Below the pieces are notes generated by a model that saw only the letters and a list, made by a program, of their open reading frames with translations, had not been told where the DNA came from and did not search any database. The position numbers were made by a program, and so were the translations under genes. This document shows, piece by piece, positions 47,788 through 54,132 of a stretch of DNA of 64,000 nucleotides (position 1 is its first letter; the number at the start of each line of letters is the position of its first letter). Source of the DNA: Oceanibacterium hippocampi (GTDB lineage Bacteria > Pseudomonadota > Alphaproteobacteria > Sneathiellales > Sneathiellaceae); NCBI RefSeq assembly GCF_900172325.1, contig NZ_FWFR01000001.1:1442335-1506334 (forward strand). Direction: 5' to 3'.

Positions 47788-47870
47788 GGTCTTTGAATTG
47801 AACTTTCGCACTTATCCTAGTGCTTTTTGCCGGCCTTTACCACCGTTTCTACCGTCGCCATAGTAAGGCC

Positions 47871-48452
47871 ATGGCCATATTGAAGATTGCCCGCATGGGG
47901 CACCCTGTCCTGGCGCGGCCGGCACCGCCCGTCGCCGACCCCGGCGACCCGGAAATCGCCCGGCTTATCGTCGACATGATCGAGACGCTGGAGGATGCCG
48001 GCGGGGTCGGGCTTGCCGCCACCCAGGTTCATGTCCCGACACGGCTGGTGATGTTCTTCGTGCCGGCTGCCCGCGCCGCCGCCGAGGACGGCGCGGCCGA
48101 AGGCGAGGGCGGCGTGCCGTTCACGGTGCTCATCAACCCGGAGATCGAGCCGCTTGGCGAGACCATGGTCGCGGGATGGGAGGGCTGTCTCTCGGTTCCG
48201 GGACTGCGCGGCCTGGTGCCGCGCCACGACCATATCCGCTATCGCGGGCTTGCCCCGGACGGCAGCCTGATCGAGCGCGAGGCGCGCGGCTTCCATGCCC
48301 GGGTCGTGCAGCATGAATGCGACCATCTTGACGGCGTGCTCTATCCGCAGCGCATGACGGATCTGTCGAGGCTGGTCTTCGAGAGCGAATTCAGGCATCA
48401 GACGGCAGCCGCCCCGGACGGGGACGGCGCGGACGACGAGGAGGTGGCTTAG
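47871..48452 (+). CDS. def: Peptide deformylase
   Basis: 193 residues. The three motifs GVGLAATQ, WEGCLSV and QHECDHLDG (metal ligands Cys and two His, catalytic Glu) are intact. Removes the formyl group from nascent proteins. An acidic insertion (AAEDGAAEGEGG) lies between motifs 1 and 2. ATG 47871 has AAGG before it. coq9 begins three bases after the stop. Confidence 0.93.
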   Translation: MAILKIARMGHPVLARPAPPVADPGDPEIARLIVDMIETLEDAGGVGLAATQVHVPTRLVMFFVPAARAAAEDGAAEGEGGVPFTVLINPEIEPLGETMVAGWEGCLSVPGLRGLVPRHDHIRYRGLAPDGSLIEREARGFHARVVQHECDHLDGVLYPQRMTDLSRLVFESEFRHQTAAAPDGDGADDEEVA

Positions 48453-48455
48453 GCG

Positions 48456-49127
48456 ATGGCCCATCATCTGGAGGAGGAGCGCCGGCGGATTCTCGCAGCG
48501 GCGCTGCCGAACGTGGCCTTCGACGGCTGGACGGCGAAGACCCTGACGGCGGCGGTCGAGGCGGCCGGATTCGAGCCGGCGATGGCGGTCCGGGCCTTTC
48601 CCGGCGGCGTCCGCGAGATGATCGGCTTCTTCATCGCCGAGGCCGACCGGGAAATGGTCGAGGCGCTGGAGGCACGCGACCTGCCGTCGATGAAGATCCG
48701 CGACCGCATCCGCACCGCCGTGCAGGTTCGGCTCGAGCAGAACGCGCCCTGGCGCGAGGCGATCCGGCGGGCGCTGGCGCACGAGATGGCGCCGCAGAAC
48801 GCCCCGGCGGCGCTTCGGCGGCTGCACCGCACGGTCGATGCCATGTGGTACGCGGCCGGGGACCGTGCTGCCGACTTCAATTACTACACCAAGCGGATGC
48901 TGCTCGCCGGGGTCTATTCCTCGACCCTGCTCTACTGGCTGAACGACCGCTCGGAAGGATCCGCCGCGACCTGGCGGTTCCTCGACCGGCGCATCGACGA
49001 CGTGATGAAGATCCAGACCGTGAAAGGACGGCTCGGCGGCCGGCTCGACAGGATTGGCGGGCTGGTCCGGCGGCCGCGACGGCCGGGCGCGGTGATCGGC
49101 GCCTGGGCGCGGCGGGGCGACGCATGA
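48456..49127 (+). CDS. COQ9-family ubiquinone biosynthesis protein
   Basis: 223 residues, TetR-like helical fold. LPNVAFDGWTAKTLTAAVEA near the N terminus and TKRMLLAGVYSSTLLYWLND, FLDRRIDDVMKI in the C-terminal lipid-binding half match COQ9, which binds isoprenoid lipid and assists the COQ7 hydroxylation step. Adjacency of coq9, rpsU and def is usual in this class. The stop overlaps the next start (ATGA). Confidence 0.93.
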   Translation: MAHHLEEERRRILAAALPNVAFDGWTAKTLTAAVEAAGFEPAMAVRAFPGGVREMIGFFIAEADREMVEALEARDLPSMKIRDRIRTAVQVRLEQNAPWREAIRRALAHEMAPQNAPAALRRLHRTVDAMWYAAGDRAADFNYYTKRMLLAGVYSSTLLYWLNDRSEGSAATWRFLDRRIDDVMKIQTVKGRLGGRLDRIGGLVRRPRRPGAVIGAWARRGDA

Positions 49128-49864
49128 GCCGGCCGCTGGATGGGCGCACGATCCTCGTCACCAATGTCACTCATTTCGTTGGCCCGCCGTCCGTTCCGGC
49201 CTTCCTCGCCGCCGGGGCGAGGCTGGTCTGTCACGACGAGGGCTTTGCCGACGCCGAGCGGGCGGCGGCGTTCGGCGCCGCCCATCCGGACGCCATCGTC
49301 GCGCCGGAACCGCTGGCCGAGGATTGCGTCGCCTGGGCGGAAGCCGAGGTCGGCCCGCTCGACGTCGTCGTCAGCAACGACCATTTCCCGGCCCACCGGA
49401 TTCTCGTCGACGCGGCCGGTCGGGACGATTTCCGGGCCGCGCTCGAGGCCCTTGCCGTTACCCCCTTCGCGGTTGCCGGAGCGGCGGCCAAGGCGATGAA
49501 GCCGCGCCGGGCGGGCAAGATCATCCTTGTCACCTCGGCGGCGCCATTGCAGGGCCTGGCCAATTACTCGATTTACGCGGCCGCGCGCGAGGCCGCCAAC
49601 GGGCTGGTGAAATCGCTCGCCCGCGAACTCGGCAAGGCGAATATCCAGGTCAACGCGCTGGCGCCCAATTTCGTCGAGAGTCCGAGCTATTTCCCCGAGG
49701 CGCTGCTCGCCGACGAGGCGGCGATGGCGAAGATTACCCGGCAGATCCCGCTCGGCCGGCTCGGCAAGCCGGAAGAGGCGGCGGCCTATCTGGTCTTCCT
49801 CGCCTCCGGCCAGTCGGATTTCATCACCGGACAGGTGCTCGCCTTCGCCGGCGGCTGGGCCTGA
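49124..49864 (+). CDS. Putative halohydrin dehalogenase (HheC-like, SDR-derived)
   Basis: 246 residues. SDR fold, but the cofactor motif TGxxxGxG is replaced by T13-NVTH-F18-V-G20, i.e. the T-x4-F-x-G fingerprint, and the catalytic set is S138-x12-Y151-x3-R155 instead of Ser-Tyr-Lys. Both are the defining features of halohydrin dehalogenases, which reversibly form epoxides from vicinal haloalcohols without NAD(P) and can open them with nucleophiles. Spacing equals that of HheC (S132, Y145, R149), and VVVSND, LAPNF and the terminal TGQVLAFAGGW region also fit. Overlaps coq9 by ATGA, so it is translationally coupled. Activity and substrate are inferred. Confidence 0.85.
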   Translation: MSRPLDGRTILVTNVTHFVGPPSVPAFLAAGARLVCHDEGFADAERAAAFGAAHPDAIVAPEPLAEDCVAWAEAEVGPLDVVVSNDHFPAHRILVDAAGRDDFRAALEALAVTPFAVAGAAAKAMKPRRAGKIILVTSAAPLQGLANYSIYAAAREAANGLVKSLARELGKANIQVNALAPNFVESPSYFPEALLADEAAMAKITRQIPLGRLGKPEEAAAYLVFLASGQSDFITGQVLAFAGGWA

Positions 49865-49876
49865 TCGGGCGGGCGC

Positions 49877-50983
49877 TCAGCGGCGGCCGCAGGCTGCCGG
49901 ATCGGGCGTCTCGCCGAGCGGGAAAAGCCAGGTGACATGGCCCATCTTGCGGCCGGGGCGGGCCTCGCCCTTGCCATAGATATGCAGCGCCGCCTTCGGA
50001 TCGGCGAGGATCGCCGCCCAGTCGTCCGCCTCGTCGCCGAGCAGGTTCCGCATCACCGCGTTCGCATGGCGGTCGGGCGAGCCGAGCGGCAGGCCGGCGA
50101 CGGCGCGGATCGCCTGCCGGAACTGGCTGGTGACGCAGCCCTCGATCGTCCAGTGCCCGGAATTGTGCGGCCGGGGCGCCAGTTCGTTGACCAGCAGGCG
50201 GCCGTCGCCGGTGACGAACATCTCGACCGCGAGCAGGCCGACCAGGTCGAGCGCGGTGACGATCCGGCCGGCCATCGCCACGGCCTCCGCCGCGGTCGCC
50301 TCGTCGAGCGGGGCCGGCGCGATCGTGACGTCGAGGATATGATCGCGGTGCCGGTTCTCGACCGCGACGAAGCAGGCGACCTCGCCGCCGAGCCCCCGGG
50401 CCGCGACCACGGAAACCTCCATGCGGAAATCGACGAAGCCCTCGAGGATCGCGGGCGCGCCCGCGATCGCCTCCCAGGCGGCGGCCGCATCGCCCGGGGT
50501 CCTGATCGCGGCCTGGCCCTTGCCGTCGTAGCCGAGCCGGCGGGTCTTCAGGATCGCCGGGGTGCCGATGGCCGCGATGGCGGTGTCGAGCGCGGCCGCG
50601 TCGTCGACCTGGCGGTAGGGTGCGGTGCCGAGGCCGAGGCCGGTCAGGAAATCCTTCTCCGCCAGCCGGTCCTGGGTGACCGCCAGTACCGACGGGCCGG
50701 GGCGCACAGGCGTTGCCCGGCCGAGGCGGGCGAGGGCCGCGACCGGGATATTCTCGAACTCCAGGGTGACCGCATCGACCGCGGCCGCGAACCGGTCGAG
50801 CGCGGCCTCGTCGTCATAACCGGCGCGCGTCGTCTCGTTCGCTACCTGGGCGGCCGGCGGATCGGCCTCGGGCGCGAAGATGTGGGTGCGGTAGCCCATT
50901 TCGGCGGCGGCAATCGCCATCATGCGGCCGAGCTGGCCGCCCCCCAGGATGCCGATCGTCGAACCCGGCGGCAGCGCGGTCAT
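49877..50983 (-). CDS. purK: N5-carboxyaminoimidazole ribonucleotide synthase
   Basis: 368 residues, ATP-grasp. [20 protein letters not shown] at the N terminus, [12 protein letters not shown] in the central domain and [18 protein letters not shown] near the end are diagnostic. Converts AIR, bicarbonate and ATP to N5-CAIR in purine synthesis. The start overlaps the purE stop by four bases. Converges on the halohydrin dehalogenase gene. Confidence 0.97.
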
Positions 50984-51486
50984 GCCCGGCTGTCTTCGGG
51001 AGCTTCATCGACCGGGGCGTCGGCGACGGCCGCCGTCTGGCGCGCCCGCCAGGCGTCGAGCGCGGCGGCGACGGTCGCATCGGTGCGGGCGACCATGGCG
51101 GCGGCGAACAAGGCCGCGTTGACCGCTCCGGCGCGGCCGATGGCGAATGTGGCGACCGGTATTCCGGCCGGCATCTGGACGATCGAGAGCAGCGAATCCA
51201 TGCCCTTGAGCGCCTTGCTCTCGACCGGCACGCCGAGGACCGGGACAGGCGTCATCGCGGCCGCCATGCCGGGCAGGTGGGCGGCGCCGCCGGCGCCGGC
51301 GATGATTGCCGTGAGGCCGCGTTCGACGGCGCTGCCGGCATAGTCGTAGAGCCGGTCCGGCGTGCGGTGGGCGGAGACGATCCGCGTTTCGTGGGCGATG
51401 CCGAGCTCGTCCAGTATCCCGGCGGCGTGCCGCATCGTCTGCCAGTCGGACTGGCTGCCCATGATAATGCCGACCAGCGCCGCCAT
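50980..51486 (-). CDS. purE: N5-CAIR mutase
   Basis: 168 residues. [26 protein letters not shown] and [12 protein letters not shown] are the class I PurE signatures; it moves the carboxyl of N5-CAIR to form CAIR. The start is ATG 51486 with GGGAGAGCGAAAGG upstream; a longer in-frame ATG is at 51582. The C-terminal [15 protein letters not shown] tail is extra. First gene of purEK. Confidence 0.96.
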
Positions 51487-51692
51487 ACCTTTCGCTCTCC
51501 CTGTCGTCGCGGACCCCTCCGGGTCCGGGAAAGCGGTGAAGTATACGGAGCCGGTTCCGTCAGGCAATGGCCACGCGGGCATATTAACCTTTCGTTGACC
51601 CAGAACCGGCTTAATGGCATCACTGACGGCGGCGAGTTCGGCTAGAACCGATCGGATCGACGGGAACCAGTGGTAGCAGATGGCATGCTCGA

Positions 51693-52993: not shown

Positions 52994-53551
52994 ATGTCGC
53001 CGACGAGTTTTCCACCCAATGAGTTCTGGGATTTTTCCTCGCGGCTCTATGCCCGCGACGGGGTCGCCGAGGCCTCGCTCGCGCTGCAGGATCGCCATGG
53101 CATCGACGTCAATCTGCTGCTCTTCTGCTGCTGGGTCGCGGCGAGTGGGCGCGGCACCTTCGAGGACGGCGAACTCGAATCGGCGATCGACAGGGTGGCG
53201 GCCTGGCGGGACAACGTGATCCTCCCGCTGCGGGACCTGCGCCGCTACCTCAAGGGCGGCGCCGCGCCGGCGCCCTACCAGCTTGCCGACGAACTGCGGC
53301 GGGTGATCGCCGACATCGAGCTGCATGGGGAGCATGTCGAGCAGCTCATCCTGAGTGCCGGCATGACGCGACTCGGAACAGGCAGTTTCGAGGCGCATCG
53401 CCAGGCCCGCGACGCTGCGGTCAACCTGTCGCGCTATTTCGCCATTCTCGCGATCGGGCTGGACGAGGAGACCGACCGGGCGGCACTCCGCATCCTCGTC
53501 AGCGCCGCCTTCCCGAGCGTCGAGGACTGGCTGGTCGCCGACTGGATCTAG
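52994..53551 (+). CDS. TIGR02444 family protein
   Basis: 185 residues. FPPNEFWDFSSRLYARDGV (residues 6-24), ASLALQDRHGIDVNLLLFCC and LPLRDLRRYLKGG are typical of this proteobacterial family of unknown role. No signal or membrane helix. It ends in a CTAG shared with the convergent ubiX stop. The frame is open upstream to 52631 as a GC-rich shadow only. Confidence 0.88.
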   Translation: MSPTSFPPNEFWDFSSRLYARDGVAEASLALQDRHGIDVNLLLFCCWVAASGRGTFEDGELESAIDRVAAWRDNVILPLRDLRRYLKGGAAPAPYQLADELRRVIADIELHGEHVEQLILSAGMTRLGTGSFEAHRQARDAAVNLSRYFAILAIGLDEETDRAALRILVSAAFPSVEDWLVADWI

Positions 53552-54132
53552 GCGCGGCCTTCCGGCCGGCCCTGCCAGCGTCGCGCCAGGTCGTTGTCGA
53601 TCTCCAGCAGGTCGAGCAGGCGTCCGACGCTGTGATCGACCATCGCCTCGAGGCTGTCCGGGCGGGCATAGAAGGCCGGCATCGGGGGCGCGATGATGGC
53701 GCCGATCTCCGACAATTGCGTGAGCATTCTCAGGTGCCCGGTGTGAAGCGGCGTCTCGCGCGGCATCACGATCAGCCGGCGGCGCTCCTTGAGCGTCACG
53801 TCGGCGGCGCGGGTCAGCAGGGTGGTCGTCATGCCGGTGGCGATCTCGGCGGCGCTGCGGATCGAGCAGGGCGCGATGACCATGCCGCGGGTCCGGAAGG
53901 AGCCGGAAGCGATCGCCGCGCCGATGTCGCCGACCGGATGGACATGATCGGCGAGCGCCTTGATCTCGGCCGGCTTCCGGTCGGTTTCGTAGGCGATCGT
54001 CAGCTCGGCCGCCTTGGAGACCACGAGGTGGCTCTCGATTCGCAATTCGCGGCAGGCTTCGAGCAGGCGGATGCCGTAGACCGAGCCCGACGCGCCGCTT
54101 ATTCCGATCACGAGGGGACCCGCGTTCGCCAT
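53548..54132 (-). CDS. ubiX: Flavin prenyltransferase UbiX
   Basis: 194 residues. GISGASGSVYGIRLLEA (residues 10-26), APCSIRSAAEIATGMTTTLL and VMPRETPLHTGHLRMLTQL are diagnostic. Makes prenylated FMN for UbiD-type decarboxylases, required for ubiquinone synthesis. Its stop and that of the convergent TIGR02444 gene share CTAG (53548-53551). Confidence 0.96.
   Translation of the reverse strand: MANAGPLVIGISGASGSVYGIRLLEACRELRIESHLVVSKAAELTIAYETDRKPAEIKALADHVHPVGDIGAAIASGSFRTRGMVIAPCSIRSAAEIATGMTTTLLTRAADVTLKERRRLIVMPRETPLHTGHLRMLTQLSEIGAIIAPPMPAFYARPDSLEAMVDHSVGRLLDLLEIDNDLARRWQGRPEGRA

Follow-up and report, generated by a model that had tools for sequence, protein, structure and literature searches.

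The window, a 64,000-nucleotide stretch of DNA from Oceanibacterium hippocampi, carries a gene of the halohydrin dehalogenase (HHDH) family whose reading frame is intact from its ATG to its stop codon and encodes a protein named P0001. The gene and its immediate neighbours are arranged as follows:

47820-48452, + strand: peptide deformylase-family gene (Pfam PF01327), probably in the same operon as the HHDH gene
48456-49127, + strand: COQ9-family gene (Pfam PF08511; sequence 49090-49150), directly upstream of the HHDH gene
49124-49864, + strand: HHDH-family gene encoding P0001, 246 amino acids (motifs, searches, tree and model)
49877-50983, - strand: purK-like gene (name from sequence inspection), a convergent neighbour conserved across the order by synteny (cluster c1)
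50980-51582, - strand: purE-like gene (name from sequence inspection), a neighbour also conserved by synteny (cluster c2)

A mechanical list of open reading frames opens the P0001 frame at a GTG at position 48845, giving 339 amino acids; alignments of homologues support ATG 49124 as the true start. The stop codon of the COQ9-family gene overlaps this start (ATGA), which suggests that the two genes form one operon, and the codon-position G+C of the HHDH gene (0.73/0.51/0.85) is similar to that of the adjacent genes. A chromosomal, non-plasmid setting, as proposed in the initial annotation, is supported by a gene order that is conserved within the host's order and by the size of the contig that carries the gene, 2.31 Mb in a genome of 4.83 Mb. 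In a plasmid collection, no close relative of P0001 was seen, the best matches (36.7%) being annotated as SDRs. The window that holds the COQ9-family gene also contains a ubiX-like gene (53548-54132; name from inspection).

The fingerprints of HHDHs have been described as T-x4-F/Y-x-G and S-x12-Y-x3-R, and those of SDR oxidoreductases as T-G/A-x3-G/A-x-G and S-x10-14-Y-x3-K (PMC11976700, PMC4989007). Three segments of the gene concern such residues:

49160-49183, + strand: codons of motif 1, T13-N-V-T-H-F18-V-G20, the nucleophile/halide pocket loop that replaces the glycine-rich NAD loop of SDRs (motif check and alignment)
49535-49588, + strand: codons of motif 2, S138-x12-Y151-x3-R155, the Ser-Tyr-Arg catalytic triad (motif check and alignment)
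49664-49693, + strand: codons of the halide site, P181-N182-F183-V184-E-S-P-S-Y189-F190 (alignment to an HheC variant)

Both HHDH motifs were found where they had originally been placed (T13/F18/G20 and S138/Y151/R155), and the classical SDR motifs TGxxxGxG and YxxxK are both absent, TNVTHFVG standing instead of the former. The accompanying claim that the NAD-binding glycines are gone holds for two of the three glycines of TGxxxGxG, which are replaced by N14 and F18; the third is retained as G20, a residue that is also part of HHDH motif 1. The spacing of the motifs had been correctly described as HheC-like. In an alignment to an HheC variant, T7, F12 and G14 of HheC correspond to T13, F18 and G20 of P0001, and S132, Y145 and R149 to S138, Y151 and R155, all at a constant offset of +6. 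This offset also relates P175, N176, Y177 and L178 of HheC to P181, N182, F183 and V184, while F186 and Y187 correspond to Y189 and F190. The halide-pocket residues of HheC (F12, P175, N176, F186 and Y187) are matched in P0001 by F18, P181, N182, Y189 and F190; at positions 186 and 187 of HheC, which are believed to interact with the anion, only Tyr/Phe variability has been reported (PMC5292711). Ordinary SDRs differ from P0001 over the aligned P181-F190 segment. At the substrate-pocket positions P84, F86 and W139 of HheC, P0001 has A90, R92 and L145.

Among 55 relatives of P0001, no variation occurs at S138, R155, N182 or Y189, and conservation is 90% or above at T13, G20 and Y151. A search of the host genome with P0001 returned 59 matches, among which the P0001 gene was the sole close one, the next being an ordinary SDR of 35% identity. 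Motif 2 occurs in none of the 46 other SDR-type proteins that were examined from this genome, nor do the two HHDH motifs occur together in any of them; S-x10-14-Y-x3-K is present in 40 of the 46, a glycine-rich dinucleotide motif in 44, and the string T-x4-[FY]-x-G, counted anywhere in the sequence, in three. A separate scan of the genome contigs with P0001 led to ordinary SDRs, and all six that were checked have motifs of the TGxxxGxG/YxxxK type.

Scans of P0001 against NCBIfam and Pfam returned generic SDR models only, with scores below the NCBIfam cut-offs. Searches against the PDB were more discriminating. With P0001 as the phmmer query, the top match was 6a41 (208.7 bits), followed by the HheC and HheA structures (134-151 bits) and by HheD8 (8xxb) and HheD2 (7b73) at 104-105 bits, the D-type identity of these two being taken from the titles of their entries; the best NAD-dependent SDR scored 100.9 bits. 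A profile of the 55 relatives widened the gap between HHDHs and SDRs, giving 351 bits for 6a41, 220-250 for HheC and HheA, and 149 for the best SDR. The monomer of P0001 was modelled with AlphaFold2 from an alignment of 55 sequences (pLDDT 95.4, pTM 0.92); this model was used instead of a prediction from the single sequence, which reached a pLDDT of 42. Foldseek placed HHDH chains (6a41, HheC and HheA) in the first 15 positions, ahead of the first FabG, and the top 11 matches in VIA-align were again 6a41, HheC and HheA, ahead of any ordinary SDR. The VIA-align Z scores were 36.9 for 6a41, about 33-34 for HheC, about 32 for HheA and at most 31.5 for ordinary SDRs, the last gap, of less than 1, not being meaningful alone. 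As the SDR fold is common to all of these proteins, the fold by itself is not decisive; the ranking and the residues together are.

A maximum-likelihood tree of 69 proteins separated an HHDH side of 58 rows from 11 SDRs with a support of 100/99. P0001 did not cluster with the NAD-dependent SDRs, the grouping that the initial annotation had named beforehand as telling against its proposal. That annotation had also proposed a tree with HheA to HheG. In the tree obtained, HheA, HheB, HheC and HheD (the last as HheD2 and HheD8) group with P0001, 6a41 and the alphaproteobacterial relatives on the HHDH side; these named members of subtypes A to D are the ones that the comparison covered. The reference sequences were the residues of PDB chains as printed in HMMER alignments, and the HheA2 and HheB queries served only to retrieve PDB entries. 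Within the HHDH side, P0001 is sister to the orthologs of the host's family (99/86), has a rather long branch (0.73) and falls outside HheB/HheD; the tree settles little of the branching order on this side, including the deeper forks among the HheA/HheC branch, 6a41 and P0001, and so places P0001 in no single subtype from A to G.

The original proposal of an HHDH candidate is thus supported by the motifs, the ranking by sequence and fold, and the tree. Family membership, fold and the residues of motifs and pocket having been computed here, P0001 is judged to be a true HHDH by sequence and fold, with a predicted activity; it would be an SDR-fold enzyme that has lost the nicotinamide site and uses that space as a halide pocket (a probability of about 0.9). 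Inferred from the HHDH family, its chemistry would be the conversion of a halohydrin to an epoxide, and it would share the tetrameric state of the family and its non-use of NAD(P). In HheC, the Ser positions the substrate hydroxyl, the Tyr, activated by the Arg, takes the proton, and the resulting oxyanion displaces the vicinal halide; the space that formerly took up the nicotinamide then holds this halide (PMC4989007). By analogy, S138 of P0001 would hold the hydroxyl of the substrate, and R155 would lower the pKa of Y151, which would accept the proton; the alkoxide would then displace the neighbouring halide to yield an epoxide and a halide ion, the latter being held near F18, N182, Y189 and F190. 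Run in reverse, the reaction would use halide, azide, cyanide or nitrite to open epoxides. The gene would probably be used in the host's order to detoxify natural halohydrins or epoxides.

The closest solved relative of P0001 is 6a41 (titled "Dehalogenation enzyme", released in 2019), with 46% identity over 244 residues, a VIA-align Z of 36.9 and an rmsd of 1.4 to the P0001 model, and the motifs TNVEKFAG and SAAPLRGIANYAPYVSAR. Almost the same sequence is encoded in a further genome of the host's class (G302); by the tree, 6a41 comes from a different alphaproteobacterial family than P0001, which differs from it at more than half of its positions. A full-text literature search found no paper on 6a41, the function of which is indicated by the entry title. 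HheC of Agrobacterium radiobacter AD1 (1pwx and engineered forms) shares the motifs and the halide-pocket residues described above but has only 36-38% identity to P0001, which lacks both its three-residue loop insertion and its C-terminal extension with the active-site Trp249, ending in GGWA, and has Leu145 in place of Trp139. HheA and HheA2 (1zmo, 4z9f) share the motifs of P0001, are close to it in length (244 amino acids) and have a Z of about 32; their identity to it is 34%, and the motif-2 loop and the 83-92 loop differ. HheB (4zd6), HheD2 (7b73) and HheD8 (8xxb) have motifs 1 and 2 in common with P0001 and fall among the HHDHs in the tree, but with 28-36% identity, a shorter N-terminal half and a separate branch. 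Active A-type HHDHs have been described from the alphaproteobacterial genomes of Parvibaculum lavamentivorans (HheA3) and Tistrella mobilis (HheA5) (PMC4989007); these plausibly belong to the same subclade as P0001.

The initial annotation held that few HHDHs have been characterised, which is dated: a review of 2016 counts 37 genes identified by motif mining, 19 of them with a confirmed activity (PMC4989007), and in a paper of 2025 the new enzymes are called a plethora (PMC11976700). P0001 adds one more enzyme to a known kind, and a genome-encoded HHDH is not novel in itself. The Parvibaculum and Tistrella enzymes are already published (PMC4989007), and in a sample of the class a relative was found, at 1e-40, in 42 of 385 genomes (about 11%) and 26 of 277 genera, a few of these 42 being without the catalytic Tyr; together, these observations indicate that genome-encoded HHDHs are not unusual. 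In a sample of the phylum, only two of 398 genomes, one of them that of the host, matched at 1e-36. As an enzyme, P0001 is diverged, with 46% identity to the nearest structure and substrate-pocket residues different from those of HheC. What rises above the ordinary is that, within one alphaproteobacterial order, the gene is near-core, syntenic and constrained.

With an ortholog cut-off of E 1e-45 or better, the gene was found once per genome in 23 of the 26 genomes of the host's order, and one of the three genomes without a match is only 65% complete. The COQ9-family gene lies directly upstream of it in the host genome and in 11 related genomes, and across the order the orthologs usually stand next to purK/purE, the convergent arrangement with these purK-like and purE-like genes being shared by the two genera of the host's family. 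One further group of the sister genus has a SulP-type permease gene in the upstream place, and its dN/dS is 0.04-0.19 for the HHDH gene, which in the host's order is under strong purifying selection. The order-wide orthologs, the synteny and the low dN/dS argue for an old vertical inheritance and not for a recent catabolic acquisition. In other families, the neighbours are an amylase, antiporter subunits, RPE65, BrkB, an acyl-CoA dehydrogenase and others, and no shared function was seen among these neighbourhoods.

The operon of HheC also includes an epoxide hydrolase (PMC11976700), but the gene of P0001 has no such partner: neither an epoxide hydrolase nor another dehalogenation gene was found adjoining it. 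The host genome has no epoxide hydrolase of the EHN or LEH (limonene-type) kind, other alpha/beta-hydrolase epoxide hydrolases lying outside this search, and no match to a Trp-halogenase. It does have two type II haloacid dehalogenase matches above the NCBIfam cut-off (L155, L156; C9, C12), both on contigs other than that of the HHDH gene. With no obvious epoxide-hydrolase partner and with the overlap to a COQ9-family gene, the role of P0001 need not be the degradation of pollutants. The HHDH of this order is near-core, vertically inherited and strongly constrained, often follows a COQ9-family gene and has no epoxide hydrolase as a partner; it is therefore tentatively proposed, at rather less than even odds, to perform a native step of metabolism or detoxification whose substrate is a halohydrin or epoxide that is endogenous or abundant in nature. 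Such a step, if true, would give the HHDH family a physiological role that has yet to be described. As the gene is kept under purifying selection in 23 of 26 genomes, a natural function of an HHDH would be testable by simple deletion in a culturable relative.

A rival explanation is an enzyme with the HHDH fold whose physiological reaction is not a dehalogenation, being instead, for instance, the opening of an endogenous epoxide by another anion or some other acid-base reaction without a cofactor; dehalogenation would then be a side activity. The near-universal presence of the gene in the order, the lack of signs of a haloalcohol pathway around it, the absence of an EHN or LEH enzyme to process the product and the probable operon with the COQ9-family gene all fit this possibility, as does the view that the natural substrates, those of HheC included, are probably different from the ones tested (PMC11976700). 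However, the retained halide-pocket residues appear suited to halide binding, the two haloacid dehalogenase matches make organohalide metabolism plausible, and the operon neighbours vary freely in other families, such that this explanation is regarded as possible but somewhat unlikely. Far less probable is that P0001 is a catalytically dead SDR or HHDH paralog that is retained for a structural or regulatory role; degenerate copies do seem to exist in the clade (for example, partners of the tandem pairs in L092-L094, and L097, L101 and L102, which lack the Tyr), but in P0001 all catalytic and tested pocket residues are either kept or exchanged between Tyr and Phe or Leu and Val. That P0001 is an ordinary NAD(P)-dependent SDR resembling HHDHs by chance is scarcely credible, since its shared fold and its generic SDR matches in Pfam and NCBIfam are set against the missing TGxxxGxG and YxxxK, the absence of motif 2 from the 46 other SDR-type proteins examined from the genome, and the contrary results of the tree and the fold ranking.

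Several relatives depart from the canonical motifs. In three genomes of one genus, HHDH paralogs occur as tandem pairs (L093:7647-9140, L092:7777-9249 and L094:7857-9337). One copy of each pair has S...Y...R, and its motif 1 is T-x4-Y-x-G in two of the three, the Thr being replaced in L093; in the other copy, Arg is changed to Gln and the aromatic residue of motif 1 is lost. The dN/dS of this second copy, about 0.2-0.33 despite the lost residues, suggests a maintained non-catalytic partner, perhaps in a hetero-oligomer. On the HheA/HheC side, the catalytic Tyr is lost and the Ser and Arg are kept in L097:7990-8748, L101:7914-8873 and L102:7986-8759, the last of which comes after a TetR gene and an RPE65-family gene. 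Trp is the central residue of motif 1 (T-x4-W-x-G) in the relatives at L075:7940-8719, L078:4516-5310 and L110:8004-8738. Two natural variants at the position of the motif-1 Thr have been mentioned as very recent (PMC11976700), and Ser replaces this Thr in the natural relatives at L083:7869-8684 and L090:3788-4504.
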